A DNA stretch of 63,068 nt from a virus. The translations under genes were made by a program, and so were the position numbers. Shown in pieces: positions 9,221 to 18,778 of the stretch (positions are counted from its first letter, which is position 1; each line of letters begins with the position of its first letter). Location: positions 1-63,068 of the IMG/VR virus record IMGVR_UViG_3300025325_000021; one strand, 5' to 3'. Below the pieces are notes generated by a model. That model made no database searches, was not told the origin of the DNA, and was given only the letters and a program-made list of their open reading frames with translations.

Positions 9221-9897
9221 GCGCAGTTGCCGTCGCAGCGTGAGCCTATCGTCGGCGGCGGGAAATAGCCGAGTGGTTGCCAGCCCTCCGCGGCGTAGCC
9301 CTCGCAATCGACGCAGTGCTCCACGGGTGAAAGCACCCGGCGTTCTTCGGTGTACTTCTCGGATTCCTTCTTGGCCTGGCGCTCCGCGTCGTGCCAGGAT
9401 GACACCACGCTATCCGCGATCTGCCTGAGCTGGTTGCGCATTTGAGCCTCCGAGATCTCCCCGTTGGCGACCTGCTGCGCCAGCAGGTCAATCCGCTTAT
9501 AGTCCTGCTTGAGGCGCGCTCCCATGCGCCCCCAGTCAGCGTAGGTAACCGCCTCCCTGCCACCGCGCCCGAACACGGTCAGCACCTGGCGTCCCTGGCG
9601 CAGCTCCAGGGCGACCCGCTCCTGCCAGTCAGGGAGTGAAAGCTGCCCGGAGATAAGGCGCTCGGTCAGCCGGGTCAAGTTCTTGCCAATCACCTGCTCG
9701 TGGTACGTCCGCACCCTGTCCAGGACGGTTCCCATCTTGACTGCTTTGCCTGTCCAGCGTGACACCCACTCGCCGAGCTTGCGCACGAACTTGTACCCGG
9801 ACAGGCGCACCAGGAATCGATCCCAGGTCAGCCCTTCCCGACGGGCGACCCTCCTGGCGGCAAGCGCCATTTCGAGAGCGTCTTGGACTGTCGTCAT
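9199..9897 (-). CDS. Phage head morphogenesis protein, Mu gpF / SPP1 gp7-like (232 aa)
   Basis: Helical N-terminal and central parts precede a C-terminal metal-binding motif characteristic of the family: HCVDCEGYAAEGW, then GSRCDGNCACSMEF, with four to five Cys placed as in gpF minor head proteins. It overlaps the portal stop by 4 bp, the usual portal-then-gpF order. Expected to be a minor head protein entering the procapsid with the portal. Confidence 0.8.
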   Translation of the reverse strand: MTTVQDALEMALAARRVARREGLTWDRFLVRLSGYKFVRKLGEWVSRWTGKAVKMGTVLDRVRTYHEQVIGKNLTRLTERLISGQLSLPDWQERVALELRQGRQVLTVFGRGGREAVTYADWGRMGARLKQDYKRIDLLAQQVANGEISEAQMRNQLRQIADSVVSSWHDAERQAKKESEKYTEERRVLSPVEHCVDCEGYAAEGWQPLGYFPPPTIGSRCDGNCACSMEFK

Positions 9898-12014
9898 TCC
9901 TCGACGACCTCCGCGTCCAGTAATTCCAGCAAGCCGGGGTCGTGCTCCTTTGCCCAGCGACGAAAGCGGTTGAGGGCCGTCTGGACTTTGCCAGCCGGGT
10001 CGTTGGCGATATACTCAACAGTAGTGGGGCGTTCATCCGGGGAGACTGTGAACGGGCGAAAAGCTAGTTCGCGTTTTACTCCAGATAGCTTGAAAGTTTC
10101 GTGCTTGCCTCCCCAAACGAGGTGTAGCGCGCCGAACTCCAGATCAATCCCAGCCTCCACTGGAGGGAGCGATGCGATCTCCGGGGCATACGCCAGAGTA
10201 ACATGAGGAATGAAACCGTGAGTACGGGAGTGGGCGATCCCAGCCCAACGCAGGGCGTCCACCAGGCGTTGACGGAATCCGGTGATGTCCGGGGAGTCTA
10301 CCAGGGCAACGTAGGCTTTGCCAGTCCCATTCCCGGCCAGATCAAATACAGCGCGCCCGGTCACCCTGCCTGTCACCGGGGGCATGCTTGCAGCAAAGGC
10401 AGCCAACGCCTTCGCTACCTCAGAACGTTTTACTTTGACATCCGCCTTGGGACCCAAAAACGCCAGGGTCAAATGCAGCTCATCCGCGGGGAGCGCCCCG
10501 TCGATCCCAACTGCCAGTTTTCCTGCCGCCTCGGGTTGAGGATAGAAGGCGATCATCACCCCGCCGTTCTGCTCCAATTCCGCCAGCCTCAGCCATCCCA
10601 GCGTTGTTGACGGCTCTTCCGGCGTCCCTTCATCGTCGAGCGATTCTTCGCCCTCCTCTTCCGGCGCGGGTTCTGTCTCCGGTACTGGAGAGGTTTCCTC
10701 AAGCTCGATAACGGGGAGCGCCTCGGGGAGGAAGTCCGACTTGCGGCGAACCTCGATCAGGTCGTCATCGCCCAGCGGGGCGATAGCGGCGTAAGCCTGG
10801 ATAAACGCGCCCAGGTTTGCCAAGTCGATCATCTTCTGCACCCGGCGTATGCCCAGCTTGGGGCGGCGCGTCATGTCCGGGAAAGCATCGCGGTTCACCG
10901 GGTAATCGAACAGACGGCGTCCGATCTGAGCGTCAGCCTGGTTGACGTATGATTCCGCCATAGCGTTGAACACAGCCAGGTAGAACTCGTTGGCGTCCTT
11001 GACCGAGGAATATGACCCGTAAGGCGACAGCGTTCCCAGCGCCGCCCACTGCATGGCAATCAGCGCCAGTTTCAGGATGCCGTAGTAACGAATCGTGTTG
11101 AGCAGCGATTCCGCAGCAGCGAACGGGGAGTCAACGACCTCGCCCTTGACGTTGCGCGGCCAGGCGGCGTAGTTGCCCTCCTGAGCGGTCAGCAGGGCGC
11201 GTACCATCTTCTTGATTTCCGTGTGGTCATCGGGAGTAAGCTGGCGATCCGTGGTCACCGAGACGTGACCGGCCGCGTGCTCAAAGCCGATCCCCATGAC
11301 CACCTCGAAGTTGTACTTGATGCGCTCCAACCGCCAGAGAGCTTCCATGACCGGCAGACCTTCCGGGGAGTCCGGGTCACCGTGTACCACATGTAACGAC
11401 CGTTCGAGTGGGATCGTCACGATCGGATTGGGGATGTCATATTGCGTAAATCCCCTGAGCCTGCCGCTCTTGTCGTCCAAGTCCCAAGCATAAAACGATT
11501 CGTAGTGGCGGAAGCCGAGCCGTCGGTAGCCGATCAGCCCGTCGTCATAGTCGCTGCGCCACGGGTCGTTGCCGGGAGGATGCCAGTCCTGCTTGCGCAG
11601 ACCGGGAACCGCTTCCCACCATCCCCAACCGTAGAAGGGGACGCGGGTCATCGCCGATTCGATCCAGCGCCCGATGCCGCCCTCCAGGTCGTTGAGCGTC
11701 TCGTTGGCGAAATCAACCGCCCGCTTGTCATCATCGGTCGGGTCATCTACCTGGGGATCGATGGAAAACTCCACGCCGAGACGGGAGGCCATCGACGATT
11801 GTACCAGCCGGGCGACGGCCACCTCCGGGTCGTTGCGCCAGATGCGATTGAACAAAGGGATGCAGGTCGGGTAGCGCAGCTCTGAATGGTAAGCCATCCT
11901 GATGTACCCGCTCCAGGCTTCAATGCCTGACGTCCCCGTCTCCGCCCAACGTCGCGTCGCTTCTTGTTGGAGATCTGCGTTTTCTTTGTAAGAGTTTTCT
12001 CTGTAATCAGCCAT
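9894..12014 (-). CDS. Portal protein (Mu gp29/DUF935-like) fused to a 2H phosphoesterase domain (706 aa)
   Basis: Residues about 1-425 are a gp29-type portal (position before gpF; IRMAYHSELRYPTCIPLFNRIW; later LIAMQWAALGTLSPYGS). An acidic Pro/Glu-rich linker (about 425-470) leads to a domain at about 485-645 with the two paired His motifs of 2H phosphoesterases, HLTL (His about 514) and HVTL (His about 604), 90 residues apart as in the LigT/2'-5' RNA ligase family. A further 60 residues follow. Portal activity forms the DNA vertex. The fused domain may act on 2',3'- or 3',5'-cyclic nucleotides or RNA ends; its role here is inferred. Confidence 0.8.
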   Translation of the reverse strand: MADYRENSYKENADLQQEATRRWAETGTSGIEAWSGYIRMAYHSELRYPTCIPLFNRIWRNDPEVAVARLVQSSMASRLGVEFSIDPQVDDPTDDDKRAVDFANETLNDLEGGIGRWIESAMTRVPFYGWGWWEAVPGLRKQDWHPPGNDPWRSDYDDGLIGYRRLGFRHYESFYAWDLDDKSGRLRGFTQYDIPNPIVTIPLERSLHVVHGDPDSPEGLPVMEALWRLERIKYNFEVVMGIGFEHAAGHVSVTTDRQLTPDDHTEIKKMVRALLTAQEGNYAAWPRNVKGEVVDSPFAAAESLLNTIRYYGILKLALIAMQWAALGTLSPYGSYSSVKDANEFYLAVFNAMAESYVNQADAQIGRRLFDYPVNRDAFPDMTRRPKLGIRRVQKMIDLANLGAFIQAYAAIAPLGDDDLIEVRRKSDFLPEALPVIELEETSPVPETEPAPEEEGEESLDDEGTPEEPSTTLGWLRLAELEQNGGVMIAFYPQPEAAGKLAVGIDGALPADELHLTLAFLGPKADVKVKRSEVAKALAAFAASMPPVTGRVTGRAVFDLAGNGTGKAYVALVDSPDITGFRQRLVDALRWAGIAHSRTHGFIPHVTLAYAPEIASLPPVEAGIDLEFGALHLVWGGKHETFKLSGVKRELAFRPFTVSPDERPTTVEYIANDPAGKVQTALNRFRRWAKEHDPGLLELLDAEVVEE

Positions 12015-14142: not shown

Positions 14143-14802
14143 TTATAGGCTCGACGGTGCAAGGATTGGCTTGTCTTCTCTCACCAAGTAGATGCCGGGC
14201 ATGGAAACGAGTGTGATGATCCCCTTGTATACAATCTGACCCCCGACCAGCGACAGCGCAGTGGCGAAAGGAATTGATTCTGCGCCGAATAACGGAGGCA
14301 AGACCACAAAAGCCAGCGAAGCAAAGACCAGAGAGTCTATCGGTAAACTGATTGCGTTTGATGTCAAGACGCGCGTCCACTGAGGCGCATTTGAGAAACG
14401 CTGTCGGTAGAAGTGATACACTTCGGTGTCGATCAGTTCGCTAATGATCTCAGCCGCGATGGACCCAACCGTGATTGCGGGGACAACTGCAAAGACAGCC
14501 GACCAGGCTTCACCCAGTTGATAGAATGGAGGCCAGGGCAGTCTTGCCATCCAAGCCAAGTACAGGGCTTGAACGATGTTGAATGCGCCCGCGCAAACGA
14601 TTGCGGCCTGCGACCATGTCTTGCCCAGCCGTTTATGAATCAGATCACGGATAGTAAACGTCAGGGCAAAGATCAATGATCCTGCTGGCATTGTGATCCC
14701 AGTAATGGAGATCAATTTTGTCGCTCCAATGTCTGCCACAGCCTGGCAAAGGATGTAGCTTCCAATCAATGCAACGACGATCCAGATAGTTTTCTTGTTC
14801 AT
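14143..14802 (-). CDS. yhhQ: YhhQ-type queuosine-precursor importer (219 aa)
   Basis: A VUT/YhhQ family membrane protein with about six hydrophobic helices. Family marks are seen: ADIGATKLISI in helix 1-2, FTIRDLIHKRLGK after helix 2, and SNAISLPIDSLVFASLAF near helix 5. Family members import preQ0, preQ1 or queuine. As the last gene of the modification operon, and with no folE, queE or queC in the window, it suggests that the phage salvages a 7-deazaguanine precursor rather than making it from GTP. Confidence 0.85.
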   Translation of the reverse strand: MNKKTIWIVVALIGSYILCQAVADIGATKLISITGITMPAGSLIFALTFTIRDLIHKRLGKTWSQAAIVCAGAFNIVQALYLAWMARLPWPPFYQLGEAWSAVFAVVPAITVGSIAAEIISELIDTEVYHFYRQRFSNAPQWTRVLTSNAISLPIDSLVFASLAFVVLPPLFGAESIPFATALSLVGGQIVYKGIITLVSMPGIYLVREDKPILAPSSL

Positions 14803-14804
14803 TT

Positions 14805-15146
14805 TTAACCTCGCTTGATGTTCGAAATGGATGCGCTCACCGGCGCGTGTACGGTTGACTCCGCGTGAACAGTCACGAACAGGAGTATGTCACCAAGCAC
14901 CGCTTTGAGTGTATCGAACACCAAGCGGGCCAGGTCTTCGATGGTCATTTGATCCAGAGCAATTGTTTTCAGCCATGATTCAAATGCTTCGAATTCGAGA
15001 AGTGTTTGTTGAGGATAGAATTCTATTTCAATTTTGCCATAGAAAGCCGCCTTCCCTATTGAACAGATAGTTGAGTAGGATGGAGAATAAAAGACCTTCG
15101 ACCCTGGGGGCAGGGAGTTATTGGGGATAGTCAAGCTCGATGTCAT
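14805..15146 (-). CDS. QueF-like T-fold protein lacking the catalytic Asp (113 aa)
   Basis: The ATG at 15146 follows GGAAG at 9 nt. Residues about 23-65 align with unimodular QueF without gaps: the Cys that forms the thioimide with preQ0 is present (STICSIGKAAFYG), the substrate-pocket Glu is present (MTIEDLARL), but the general-acid Asp seven residues after Cys is Phe and the His next to the Glu is Ile. I therefore infer a preQ0-binding enzyme that may not carry out the NADPH reduction, perhaps transferring the adduct to another nucleophile as QueF-L does. It overlaps the upstream gene by 29 bp. Confidence 0.7.
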   Translation of the reverse strand: MTSSLTIPNNSLPPGSKVFYSPSYSTICSIGKAAFYGKIEIEFYPQQTLLEFEAFESWLKTIALDQMTIEDLARLVFDTLKAVLGDILLFVTVHAESTVHAPVSASISNIKRG

Positions 15147-15570
15147 TTTGATAGTCTTCCGGTCTGGTAAACCAGGCGTTTTGTTGGGCGAAACCGATTG
15201 AATAAAACTCCCCAAAGGACAGCCTGATTTCATCGTTCAGCCTGATTAAGAGGAGATTCTGAAACCAGCCTGGGGGCAGATCGAGGGTGACCACCAGGCG
15301 CGACTTGTTGTCCCGTCTGAAAGGATGCATGCGTGAGTCCAGCTCGTCCGGAGTTGTTTCCACAGAAACGACCAGGTCGTTGTCCAGCAAAAACTGAGCC
15401 AGCTCCCATTTTTCGACAGTCTCTTTGCACAGCCAAACGTGGCCGAGATTGTGTTTCCGACAAACCGCCAAGATCATGTCAAATCTACCGCGGGTTGTTT
15501 TGCGCACAAAAAGGCTGGGAATACCGGCGAACCTGCCTTCTATCTCAATGCCTGTCCATAATTCAGCCAT
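15118..15570 (-). CDS. Unknown protein of the deazaguanine operon (150 aa)
   Basis: Not recognised. The ATG at 15570 overlaps the glycosyltransferase stop by 8 bp. An alternating helix/strand pattern (RGRFDMILAVCRKHNLGHVWLC, the longest clear helix-strand unit, is at about residues 28-48). No radical-SAM cysteine triad, Walker motif or membrane helix is present. Its place between the glycosyltransferase and QueF-like genes, with overlaps at both ends, ties it to base modification. It could be an adaptor or a new tailoring enzyme. Confidence 0.65.
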   Translation of the reverse strand: MAELWTGIEIEGRFAGIPSLFVRKTTRGRFDMILAVCRKHNLGHVWLCKETVEKWELAQFLLDNDLVVSVETTPDELDSRMHPFRRDNKSRLVVTLDLPPGWFQNLLLIRLNDEIRLSFGEFYSIGFAQQNAWFTRPEDYQNDIELDYPQ

Positions 15571-16687
15571 TCCAGATATTGACCTCCTGGGGTGATCTTC
15601 CGCTCTGCCGAGCAAAGAGGGGGTAGTAATACCTGCCACGATCACAAAGTCGAGCGATCTCAAAATGAGTGCGAGGTGAATCGATCACCTGATGAAACAG
15701 GCTCAAAGCGGATTCCAGGCTAAAAGCGGAGTATAACCGATCAGAAGGGACGCACTCCGGGAAACTGCGCCAATTCGGATACACCACGTCGCAACCGGCA
15801 ATGCAGCCTTCCAGTAACGTCCAAGAAACGTAGTCCTGGAGCGAGCAATTAAAAATAATCTTCGATTTAGCCAGTTCCTGATAATATTCGTCCTTCGTCA
15901 GCCCTGCTCTTAGAGCAAATCGCGGCTGCTCAGAAGCCAACTGTTTTAGTTGATCTATCATACCGGGAGCATTGCTTGCAAACTGAGTACGGGAAGTGGT
16001 CACCATCCAAGACCAGTCGGGGTAAACCTTCAAAAATTGACGGGCGACCTCCAGCATAAATACCGGTTGCTTCTCCCCGTCCAGCCGAGAGGCAAAGATG
16101 ACTTGGTTCTGTTTTTTTACGTCTGGAAGGCGACCGGCGACTTCGGCGTAATCTATGGGTAAGCCAATGACATGAATCGGCGCGCTAAAGCCAGCCTCCC
16201 GGAGTTGTTCTTTGTGGATCGAGCTCCCGACAAAAATCCCGGTCATCATCCCGTCATAGCTTATCTCGATAGGGCGCATCCAGTCACGCATCGGCCAGGT
16301 AAAATCGTATATGTCCACCGTCTGCGCCCATAACTGGGCATAGTAGTCCAGGGTGATGTTTTTAATATGCGCAGCGTAAAAGATGGCTTCGATCCCTGGG
16401 GTCCAAAAATCCTGCAAGACCACCACGTCCCCGTTGTTGACTCTGCCTTCGTCGACCAGGTGGAGAAACCGGGAGACCTGTGACAACGAGTAAACCCCCC
16501 TGCCAACCGCGTCCAAAACCACGCCGTCCCGGATGTCGTCTGCAAGCACAGCCCCTGGAATCGGGACAAAAGCAAGGTCGCTAAACTGGGCAAAGGCATT
16601 CGGAATCCACCACTGGCTAAGCTGAGTGGTGTAACGCGACTTGATCGGTTCCAAGCCAAAGTAAAAAACTTGCTTCTTAGTCAGCAT
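15563..16687 (-). CDS. GT-B fold glycosyltransferase, family 4-like (374 aa)
   Basis: The ATG at 16687 overlaps the QueD-like stop by 11 bp. The C-terminal half carries family marks: VIFASRLDGEKQP (start of the nucleotide-sugar domain) and SWTLLEGCIAGCDVVYPN (the acidic-Gly donor-binding motif). The N-terminal half has the GT-B acceptor-side pattern. No membrane helix or signal peptide, so it is cytoplasmic. Sitting inside an overlapping 7-deazaguanine operon, it most simply glycosylates the modified base or its precursor; host glycan modification is the alternative. Confidence 0.75.
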   Translation of the reverse strand: MLTKKQVFYFGLEPIKSRYTTQLSQWWIPNAFAQFSDLAFVPIPGAVLADDIRDGVVLDAVGRGVYSLSQVSRFLHLVDEGRVNNGDVVVLQDFWTPGIEAIFYAAHIKNITLDYYAQLWAQTVDIYDFTWPMRDWMRPIEISYDGMMTGIFVGSSIHKEQLREAGFSAPIHVIGLPIDYAEVAGRLPDVKKQNQVIFASRLDGEKQPVFMLEVARQFLKVYPDWSWMVTTSRTQFASNAPGMIDQLKQLASEQPRFALRAGLTKDEYYQELAKSKIIFNCSLQDYVSWTLLEGCIAGCDVVYPNWRSFPECVPSDRLYSAFSLESALSLFHQVIDSPRTHFEIARLCDRGRYYYPLFARQSGRSPQEVNIWNG

Positions 16688-17018
16688 AATAGTAAGCCCC
16701 GTTCTCGTTGTCCTCAAAGACACCGACGTAGAAAGCTGCCAGTTGATCGCATAATTCCCCGGCGATCATCTCACAAGACTTGCCTTGAAAATCATAGCCA
16801 AAACCGTTGTGTGGGTACAGACCGTCAAGAGCCGAGCGGATCTCGTTCTGGAGTTCAAAGAACTCGAGTTCCCGATCGCTGCCTCCCACTCTGAACCCGA
16901 CTTTGATGTGCAGGTTATGGCGGTGGGTATGGCGCAAGAAAGATAAGTGTTCCGGCGCTCCCAGCCAGTAATGAAATCCAGGGACGACCAAACGGGCTTG
17001 GATGATGATTCTAGACAT
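16677..17018 (-). CDS. QueD/PTPS-like T-fold protein without the catalytic Cys (113 aa)
   Basis: Matches the 6-pyruvoyl-tetrahydropterin synthase/QueD family in length and zinc ligands: an upstream His in APEHLSF, HRHNLHIKV equivalent to HGHNY-V, ELEFFELQNEI equivalent to the DF-LK stretch, and SCEMIAGEL with the pterin-binding Glu. The Cys normally four residues before HxH is Leu, so canonical CPH4 synthesis is doubtful. It overlaps dpdA and the glycosyltransferase by 8 and 11 bp. It probably binds a pterin or deazaguanine ligand. Confidence 0.7.
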   Translation of the reverse strand: MSRIIIQARLVVPGFHYWLGAPEHLSFLRHTHRHNLHIKVGFRVGGSDRELEFFELQNEIRSALDGLYPHNGFGYDFQGKSCEMIAGELCDQLAAFYVGVFEDNENGAYYYAD

Positions 17019-17886
17019 TTGTTTGATTGTAAAAATATTGCCAGTTATTGCTGTGCCAATTGTAAAGGCGGTAGCCTAACGCAGCCCCTGCCATGTAATT
17101 ATCACGGTCGCCCCGGCGAACCTGGAACCCGTCCGAAACCTGGTTGTGGAGCGTACAGCAGCCGCCTTCCCCCAGCCTGCCAAAACGAATCAACGCCGAG
17201 GACAAGGTCGTATCAATGCTATCGAATAAAGGGTAAGCCAACAAGTAGTAATGCACCCCAAGACCGAGGATGTGAATCCATACATCGGGGTACTTTAACT
17301 TGGCAACGTTTGCCAGGTCCAATATCGTGCGGCGTACGATGTCAGCCTCCATTGCCACGTTGCCAAAAGCAACCCGGTCGTAGTTCTGGAGCAGGTAATG
17401 GAGATACGCGCTGTCATCCCCGACCGGGTGGACAACCGGTATCGGGACGAGTCCTCTCGATTCCATCCGTTCGCGGAGCAGAGTTTTCTGTTCGGTGTTG
17501 CCTATGTCCAGCTCAACGTAACCCCACAGCTTGCCCTCGTATTTATGAAGGAACCTGCAATACTCGTCGAAATATTTAGTCAGTTCGGGGCTGTTTATGT
17601 CGATCCTTCTATCTGCCGACAAAATTGAAAAAGTCCCCTCCCGCGCCATCTTCATGTAAATGCCATGCGTCCCGGAGTCGATCAATATCCGATCTTCCCT
17701 GCGAATAGAATGTTCCAAGTACTCGAAATCTTTTGGAGAGTCAAGCTCGTAGTAGGAGTACAAGTAATTGTTCTGCAAACCCATGTCCGCCAGGTAGGTA
17801 AGGGTCGCGTTAAACACCAGTTTGCCGGGCGTGTCCGCTTTCCCGCCGCCAGTAACTTTCTTATTGCTTGACGATAGCTGATTCAC
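17011..17886 (-). CDS. dpdA: DpdA-like DNA guanine transglycosylase (291 aa)
   Basis: A TGT-superfamily paralogue of the DpdA group, which exchanges guanine in DNA for a 7-deazaguanine. Visible marks: RILIDSGTHGIY (active-site DSG near residue 70), WGYVELDIGN, a VHPVGD strand, RVAFGNVAM, and HILGLGVHYYLLAYPLFDSID (barrel strand with His-Gly-Gly and Asp-Ser; read as separate short motifs). A GTG start at 17886 with AGGGTG upstream is used; it overlaps the ParB-like gene by 26 bp. The length fits compact phage DpdA proteins. Confidence 0.8.
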   Translation of the reverse strand: MNQLSSSNKKVTGGGKADTPGKLVFNATLTYLADMGLQNNYLYSYYELDSPKDFEYLEHSIRREDRILIDSGTHGIYMKMAREGTFSILSADRRIDINSPELTKYFDEYCRFLHKYEGKLWGYVELDIGNTEQKTLLRERMESRGLVPIPVVHPVGDDSAYLHYLLQNYDRVAFGNVAMEADIVRRTILDLANVAKLKYPDVWIHILGLGVHYYLLAYPLFDSIDTTLSSALIRFGRLGEGGCCTLHNQVSDGFQVRRGDRDNYMAGAALGYRLYNWHSNNWQYFYNQTNV

Positions 17887-18778
17887 CGTACACCCTGAGC
17901 GCGCTTTGTAAGATCAATCCTGCCAGTTGCAGATCGGGCTGGACTAAAAAAAGATCGGTCGTCGCAGCTATCTTTGTAGTAAAGATCAAGGGACCTGGAA
18001 GGGGAATAAAGAGCATGTCCGGTTTCATCCGAACCGTATAGATCTGCCAGTCTCGAAAAACGTCGAGGATCGCCAAAAAATGCCGGCCTGCGATCAAGTA
18101 AATATCTCCCTGTTCTGCGTCCCCTTCGCTTGTATGTAAGCCAAAATCCTTGAATTTGTCCAGGAGCAGTCCGCGGGCTTCGTCCGGCGTCAATTCCTGG
18201 TTCATCGCCGCGATAATTGCAGCAATGTTGTTCAGGTCCTGCAAATCCACAGATACGGGCATCGTCGATCCAGTCGGGTCTTCCAGGGCAAGAGTTTCGA
18301 GCACCTTGTAATAGCCCTGCGCATCCCAGAGGCGCATGATCTCGGAGATTTCAAAGTCTCCACCAGACATCGTCAGGTTGTTTGCGTCGATGGCGTAACT
18401 GCGTGCAAGAGCCTTGCTGGCTGCGTCCGTGCCAACGACGAGAGGCATAGCCCAATCCCCTGTCTCGATTACCTTCGCTAATCCCCTGGGGAGAAGCATC
18501 CTTTGCTGCTCCATCTTGAAAAGAGCCTCGATCCTGCCATTGCCGGATTTAATCCCACCATCCCCGCCGGAGACGTTAGTCAACTGGCCGTCGAACTTCG
18601 GCAAGTCCTGGAACCCATGTTTGACGATAGAGGCGATCACCCCCCCAATGTCGTGCAGCTTCGGGTTTTCGTCCCACAGCAGACCAATAGCGTCCTTGAC
18701 CCTGACCCAGATCAATTGAGGGGGATCATTAAATTCCAGTGTCGAGATATCGAGTTGGCGATCCAACGAGGAAGCCAT
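17861..18778 (-). CDS. ParB/Srx-fold protein, DpdB-like partner (305 aa)
   Basis: The ATG at 18778 has GAAGGGAAA just upstream. An N-terminal ParB-type region: DIGGVIASIVKHGFQDLP, then GGIKSGNGRIEALFKM, where GNGR is the ParB/sulfiredoxin nucleotide-binding Gly-x-x-Arg motif. The remaining 170 residues are mixed alpha/beta. In bacterial dpd clusters the ParB-like ATPase DpdB works with DpdA to insert preQ0 into DNA; the overlap with dpdA here suggests the same partnership. First gene of the operon, behind a minus-strand promoter. Confidence 0.65.
   Translation of the reverse strand: MASSLDRQLDISTLEFNDPPQLIWVRVKDAIGLLWDENPKLHDIGGVIASIVKHGFQDLPKFDGQLTNVSGGDGGIKSGNGRIEALFKMEQQRMLLPRGLAKVIETGDWAMPLVVGTDAASKALARSYAIDANNLTMSGGDFEISEIMRLWDAQGYYKVLETLALEDPTGSTMPVSVDLQDLNNIAAIIAAMNQELTPDEARGLLLDKFKDFGLHTSEGDAEQGDIYLIAGRHFLAILDVFRDWQIYTVRMKPDMLFIPLPGPLIFTTKIAATTDLFLVQPDLQLAGLILQSALRVYGESAIVKQ

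Follow-up and report, generated by a model that had tools for sequence, protein, structure and literature searches.

What is a glycosyltransferase doing inside a viral operon for 7-deazaguanine modification of DNA? The question is raised by IMG/VR virus record IMGVR_UViG_3300025325_000021, whose whole 63,068-base stretch (hereafter the window) carries seven same-strand genes, running on the minus strand from position 18778 to 14143, in the 5' to 3' order: a ParB-like gene, DpdA, a QueD-like T-fold protein (T2), the glycosyltransferase (GT), an orphan protein (U150), a small T-fold protein and the transporter YhhQ. An earlier note, made from this sequence, had proposed that the operon yields a glycosylated deazaguanine in DNA. 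From gene content across viruses, it is well supported that GT is a working member of a deazaguanine DNA-modification operon, because its homologues nearly always lie beside DpdA/TGT, T2 and FolE/QueD/QueE genes. The operon is likely to be the salvage version of a widespread viral system in which guanine in DNA is replaced by a 7-deazaguanine, to which a sugar is then added. On balance we also favour the broader reading that glycosylated 7-deazaguanine DNA occurs in hundreds of viruses by a QueC-independent route, in which T2 reshapes a base at the level of 7-carboxy-7-deazaguanine (CDG) for insertion by DpdA or DpdA2, the sugar being added by a dedicated viral GT4-type enzyme with U150 as its partner. 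Thus, of the earlier proposal, the operon and the membership of GT are borne out by conserved linkage, and the sugar on a DNA base is what we infer.

The linkage was visible in isolate phages and metagenomic viruses alike. Searching 50,697 phage records by tblastn identified GT in 16, each match covering more than 80% of the protein, including Synechococcus phage BUCT-ZZ01, Xanthomonas phage X1, Acidovorax phage ACP17, Sinorhizobium phage Phosso and the PA5oct/Paride group. T2 was matched in only 25 of these records, and all 16 GT records were among them; in one annotated representative per phage group, the surroundings of GT contained FolE, QueD, QueE or transglycosylase genes. A GT profile scan of IMG/VR yielded at least 573 confirmed viral relatives, and the same profile marked only 7 places when run over 84,980 species genomes; three or more of these places are short contigs from metagenome-assembled genomes with viral gene content. 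In 188 loci scanned with profiles, the same neighbours recurred throughout. To avoid bias from loci fetched with U150, neighbours were counted only at loci fetched with GT, using 51 non-redundant GT copies with 1.5 kb on either side and considering the same strand. Within this distance T2 was present in 42, DpdA/TGT in 35, U150 in 20 and FolE in 14, such that 47 of the 51 had T2 and/or TGT; within 5 kb, T2 or TGT was found in 32/32. TGT began no more than 150 nt after GT in 33 cases and T2 lay ahead of GT in 26. The transglycosylase partner was DpdA2 (KVP40/phi-ST2 family) in most loci and a small DpdA in some others and in the window, where it is of the Seurat/Me-ZS1 kind, the linkage persisting across different DpdA types. 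The combination, which the earlier note took to be undescribed, is one variant of a widespread viral module.

Two further types of GT locus were seen. In alphaproteobacterial genomes (Thalassobius, Pseudooctadecabacter, Azospirillum) YhhQ, GT and a TGT-like gene stand in a row without T2 or U150 (L184 6498-9590, L185 6272-9398 and L187 6325-7961), with the TGT-like gene on the opposite strand in L187 and an integrase-like gene near the row in L184. An Altiarchaeales-binned contig (L183 2608-7331) carries GT, T2 and a DpdA-like protein of 785 aa whose C terminus bears a long extension.

As a whole the module is without queC, folE and queE being kept by most members, so that, judged by their genes, most GT viruses appear able to make CDG (via FolE, QueD and QueE) and not preQ0. 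When the whole records of 17 isolate phages carrying deazaguanine genes, a partly chosen set, were searched, T2 was found in 10 and QueC in the other 7, without overlap (X1 gave one sub-cutoff QueC match); GT was present in five of the ten T2 isolates, and T2 and GT were both absent from the seven with QueC. QueC was found in none of the 11 IMG/VR records tested. The contrast is clear in the related phages ACP17 and Moby (PMC9025141). The gene order in Moby is DNA polymerase, recA, FolE, QueC, DpdA2, QueE and helicase, with unnamed genes and one other gene interspersed, and in ACP17 it is DNA polymerase, recA, QueD, FolE, U150-like, DpdA2, GT, T2, QueE and helicase; the position of QueC in Moby is thus occupied in ACP17 by T2, GT and the U150-like gene, between common flanking neighbours. 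That a phage lacking QueC alone might carry CDG has already been suggested (PMC6884629). The window goes further, as it lacks folE, QueD proper, queE and queC and possesses YhhQ; its base is therefore probably imported or host-made, in keeping with the salvage that had been proposed in place of synthesis. This salvage form appears to be recurrent, since U150, the small T-fold gene and YhhQ are found in the same order before a terminase gene at a second locus (L071 4016-5240); the 4 kb upstream of them at that locus showed neither DpdA nor T2 nor GT.

The seven open reading frames (Table 1) are packed as tightly as had been described. Frames overlap by 26 nt (ParB-like/DpdA), 8 nt (DpdA/T2), 11 nt (T2/GT), 8 nt (GT/U150) and 29 nt (U150/small T-fold gene, whose ATG is at 15146), YhhQ follows the small T-fold gene after a gap of 2 bp, and the small terminase gene begins 12 bp past YhhQ. 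All seven genes recur at 99-100% identity in two IMG/VR contigs from other samples. Homologues in other viruses are more distant, at 46-54% identity for GT, 30-41% for T2 and 20-29% for U150, and this conservation of frame indicates that the three genes are coding.

Table 1 Genes of the operon in 5' to 3' order
Feature	Position	Strand	Basis
First gene (305 aa), ParB-like on visual inspection (GNGRIEAL motif); may bind DNA as a partner of DpdA	17861..18778	-	
DpdA-type DNA guanine transglycosylase (predicted), 291 aa, GTG start	17011..17886	-	phrog_887, invariant residues
T2, QueD-like T-fold protein, 113 aa	16677..17018	-	family alignment, PDB profile match, hhalign
GT4-fold glycosyltransferase, 374 aa	15563..16687	-	alignments, AlphaFold model, Pfam in relatives
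U150, orphan alpha/beta protein, 150 aa, GxEVEGR motif; recurrent GT neighbour	15118..15570	-	alignment, model
Small T-fold protein, FolE/QueF type, 113 aa	14805..15146	-	weak QueF and FolE matches
YhhQ/QPTR-type queuosine-precursor transporter, 219 aa	14143..14802	-	Vut_1, TIGR00697

Fold and family together place GT firmly, as a prediction, among the GT4-like glycosyltransferases, as the earlier note had it. Its AlphaFold model is a GT-B fold (predicted local distance difference test, pLDDT, 93.5) that matches GT4 structures at E values down to 1.6e-12; family alignments confirm that the donor and catalytic residues of GT4 enzymes are kept (R201, E205/K206, D285-x7-E293), and the Pfam GT group 1 family is matched in 17 of 20 relatives. 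Its PDB profile matches are polysaccharide mannosyltransferases (2f9f, 2.9e-5). Membrane acceptor features, raised earlier as a possible refutation, were looked for by hydropathy, and no membrane segment was found in GT. A kinship with the GT4-like tRNA-queuosine mannosyltransferase QTMAN, suspected by eye, was rejected, as none of the 20 members has QTMAN_N (PF12038) among its matched families. Two of these members matched the Pfam family GT4-conflict, for which literature follow-up found no bearing. Paralogous GT pairs occur in L013 (6859-8061 and 12081-13193) and L014 (8001-9185 and 13230-14324), the second copy lying directly after T2 in each; a disaccharide or two sugar sites are possible there.

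The transglycosylase and the importer were likewise identified as proposed. DpdA matches phrog_887 (queuine tRNA-ribosyltransferase; E 2.1e-19) and, by tblastn, the Erebus and Seurat-type DpdA proteins (3e-4 to 3e-3). Residues D70-S71-G72, D127, H205 and D225 are invariant across eight proteins, including this one and those of Seurat and Me-ZS1, so that TGT-fold homology, the catalytic Asp residues and the DpdA histidine are all present. This makes for a firm sequence-based assignment to an enzyme that acts on DNA in phages (PMC6884629). The assignment of the YhhQ/QPTR transporter is predicted equally firmly, by TIGR00697 (3.8e-26, 92.1 bits against a cut-off of 50.95) and Vut_1 (1.4e-29).

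T2 is, by its sequence, a member of the QueD superfamily. It has a PDB profile match to PH0634 (PDB 2dj6, annotated hypothetical; E 0.0019) and aligns with phage QueD in hhalign (88.8%, 2.5e-6). An alignment of 17 family members revealed that the zinc His triad (H16, H32, H34) and substrate-type Glu residues (E83, E102) are kept, whereas neither the QueD catalytic Cys, before HxH, nor the Asp-His pair is conserved at those places; an SCE motif, whose Cys is distinct from that of QueD, is invariant. Because the triad and Glu residues are retained, the QueD Cys is lost and SCE is invariant, T2 probably binds a related base and performs a chemistry other than that of QueD. T2 may be the predicted decarboxylase DpdL, in which case GT would act in a decarboxylated branch. 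T2 also occurs with other domains joined on its N-terminal side in Chryseobacterium phage MA9V-3 (L026 5461-6342) and Vibrio phage Bakedbeans (L029 7098-8279), both without GT.

The description as an altered T-fold protein holds for T2. The small T-fold protein is of the FolE/QueF type, but its matches to QueF (E about 0.003-0.03) fall below all cut-offs and equal those to FolE, so that the specific label "QueF-like" fares no better than FolE. Its Cys28 aligns with the catalytic Cys of QueF; the QueF Asp and the NADPH motif ESKSxK are absent. The locus L071, where it lies beside U150 and YhhQ, supplied one independent relative. The DpdB/ParB label of the first gene, which goes back to a motif seen by eye, was not confirmed: no ParB domain was matched in Pfam, NCBIfam, PHROGs or PADLOC, and pairwise comparison with ParB proteins was negative. 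An iterated profile of this gene was set aside after it had drawn in an unrelated protein of low score from L153. In L130 a ParB-like gene does immediately precede DpdA, and in phage Roos one precedes both T2 and DpdA.

For most GT viruses the simplest model would be that T2 modifies CDG, DpdA inserts the product and GT adds the sugar. In the window, YhhQ would import a 7-deazaguanine precursor, and the small FolE/QueF-type protein and T2 would adjust the 7-substituent of the free base, the former perhaps, speculatively, bringing an imported nitrile to a level that T2 accepts. DpdA would then swap the adjusted base for guanine in DNA, and the GT4 enzyme would use a nucleotide-sugar as donor to glycosylate the 7-substituent, probably after insertion, on DNA, as T4 glucosyltransferases do. 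U150 and the ParB-like protein might assist, perhaps through DNA or substrate binding. We infer that DNA and not tRNA is the target, that the sugar sits on the deazaguanine and that the steps run in this order, as well as what T2, U150 and the FolE/QueF-type protein do. Several points weigh against this picture. Its weakest is that the enzymes assigned supply no known handle for a sugar, such as a hydroxyl. The closest folds to GT are of all kinds, and the acceptors of GT4 enzymes also include lipids, proteins and small molecules. The QueC contrast draws on 17 related, partly chosen records, and five T2-bearing phages lack GT, so that T2 does not depend on it. Finally, at the sequence level, the ParB-like assignment failed and the QueF-like one is weak.

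GT might instead act on the free base or nucleotide, or make a soluble pterin or deazaguanine glycoside, with the DNA holding a simpler 7-deazaguanine that bears no sugar. The fold matches of GT include 5ze7, a GT4 enzyme that adds glucose to tetrahydrobiopterin; T2 is a relative of pterin synthases, and FolE is common in GT neighbourhoods. However, 5ze7 is not among the best sequence-profile matches of GT, the most constant neighbour of GT, with T2, is DpdA/TGT, and FolE is absent from the window, making this alternative unlikely.

Sugars on 7-deazaguanine are known from tRNA, as animal tRNAs contain mannosyl- and galactosyl-queuosine (PMC12518689). As DpdA and TGT are related and YhhQ-GT-TGT islands exist in bacteria, the gene set could act on tRNA to give a glycosylated queuosine-like nucleoside. 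We regard this as quite improbable: the transglycosylases concerned are of the phage DpdA/DpdA2 types, which act on DNA (PMC6884629), and the QTMAN_N domain is unmatched in GT members. QTMAN and its galactosyltransferase counterpart QTGAL resemble the viral enzyme in the placing of a sugar on a 7-deazaguanine nucleoside and differ from it in acting on animal tRNA and, for QTMAN, in this domain.

U150 was modelled with confidence (pLDDT 87.6; predicted template modelling score, pTM, 0.81). The structure-based comparison called for by the earlier note leaves it an orphan, with no solved structure in the PDB fold search matching at E below 0.19; in a viral library its fold matches an uncharacterized protein of ACP17 (5.6e-4). 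A short motif (EGRxxGIPSLFVR) resembles QueE, and a degenerate QueE would give the operon three cast-off deazaguanine enzymes. This origin is very improbable and was rejected, since neither hhalign (21 columns aligned, 34% probability) nor the fold search, in which QueE is not among the matches listed, supports the likeness, and the radical S-adenosylmethionine CxxxCxxC cluster is not conserved in 37 U150-family sequences.

That GT serves modification of the host surface (O-antigen or wall) and came to lie in the operon by chance would fit its profile matches to polysaccharide mannosyltransferases, but is extremely improbable given a GT neighbourhood of, nearly always, deazaguanine genes conserved over many diverse viruses and the lack of a membrane segment.

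A sugar-adding deazaguanine DNA module would seem to be a kind of DNA camouflage not described before. Published phage systems (9g, CAjan, nt-1) insert dPreQ0, dPreQ1, dADG and dG+ via DpdA or DpdA2 (PMC6884629). Like them, the present module is virus-encoded and has a DpdA-type transglycosylase with the same conserved residues and related base-supply genes; unlike them, in that they proceed through QueC to preQ0, the GT viruses lack QueC and have T2, GT and often U150, the window moreover lacking folE and queE and having YhhQ. T4-type DNA glucosyltransferases (PMC13216743) offer a second parallel, being virus-encoded GT-B-type enzymes that transfer sugar to a modified DNA base in counter-defence, but their substrate is hydroxymethylcytosine, whereas GT is GT4-like and linked to deazaguanine. 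Full-text literature searches, with Cui et al. 2023 and preprints outside their scope, returned no glycosyltransferase or glycosylated deazaguanine in phage DNA; a survey of jumbo phages refers to a deazaguanine system in PA5oct and names no GT as part of it, and DNA modification goes unmentioned in the main text of the Paride paper. Cui et al. 2023 reportedly describe carboxy, unsubstituted, methylated and formylated phage 7-deazaguanines and are not known to report a glycosylated form or a glycosyltransferase. Phages that lack QueC and bear a 7-carboxy- or 7-unsubstituted base, as reportedly exist, would resemble the GT viruses.

Sugar-coated DNA is familiar from hydroxymethylated pyrimidines; if our reading is true, hypermodification extends to guanine positions, with a purine-like base, and could provide viruses with a bulky shield against restriction and CRISPR nucleases. 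Since the module is present in laboratory isolates, for example Pseudomonas phage Paride, which kills dormant cells, the prediction is directly testable. The module further hints at what two unnamed families of viral proteins do, and is a source of new base-modifying enzymes.

Two other genes of the window were noted. A large portal-like gene upstream of the terminase (9894-12014) has two HxT motifs (HLTLAF, HVTLAY) in its C-terminal part, reminiscent of 2H phosphoesterases, and the protein encoded at 1182-1877 has a sulfotransferase-like start (LFSFPCSGSTIITQFF).

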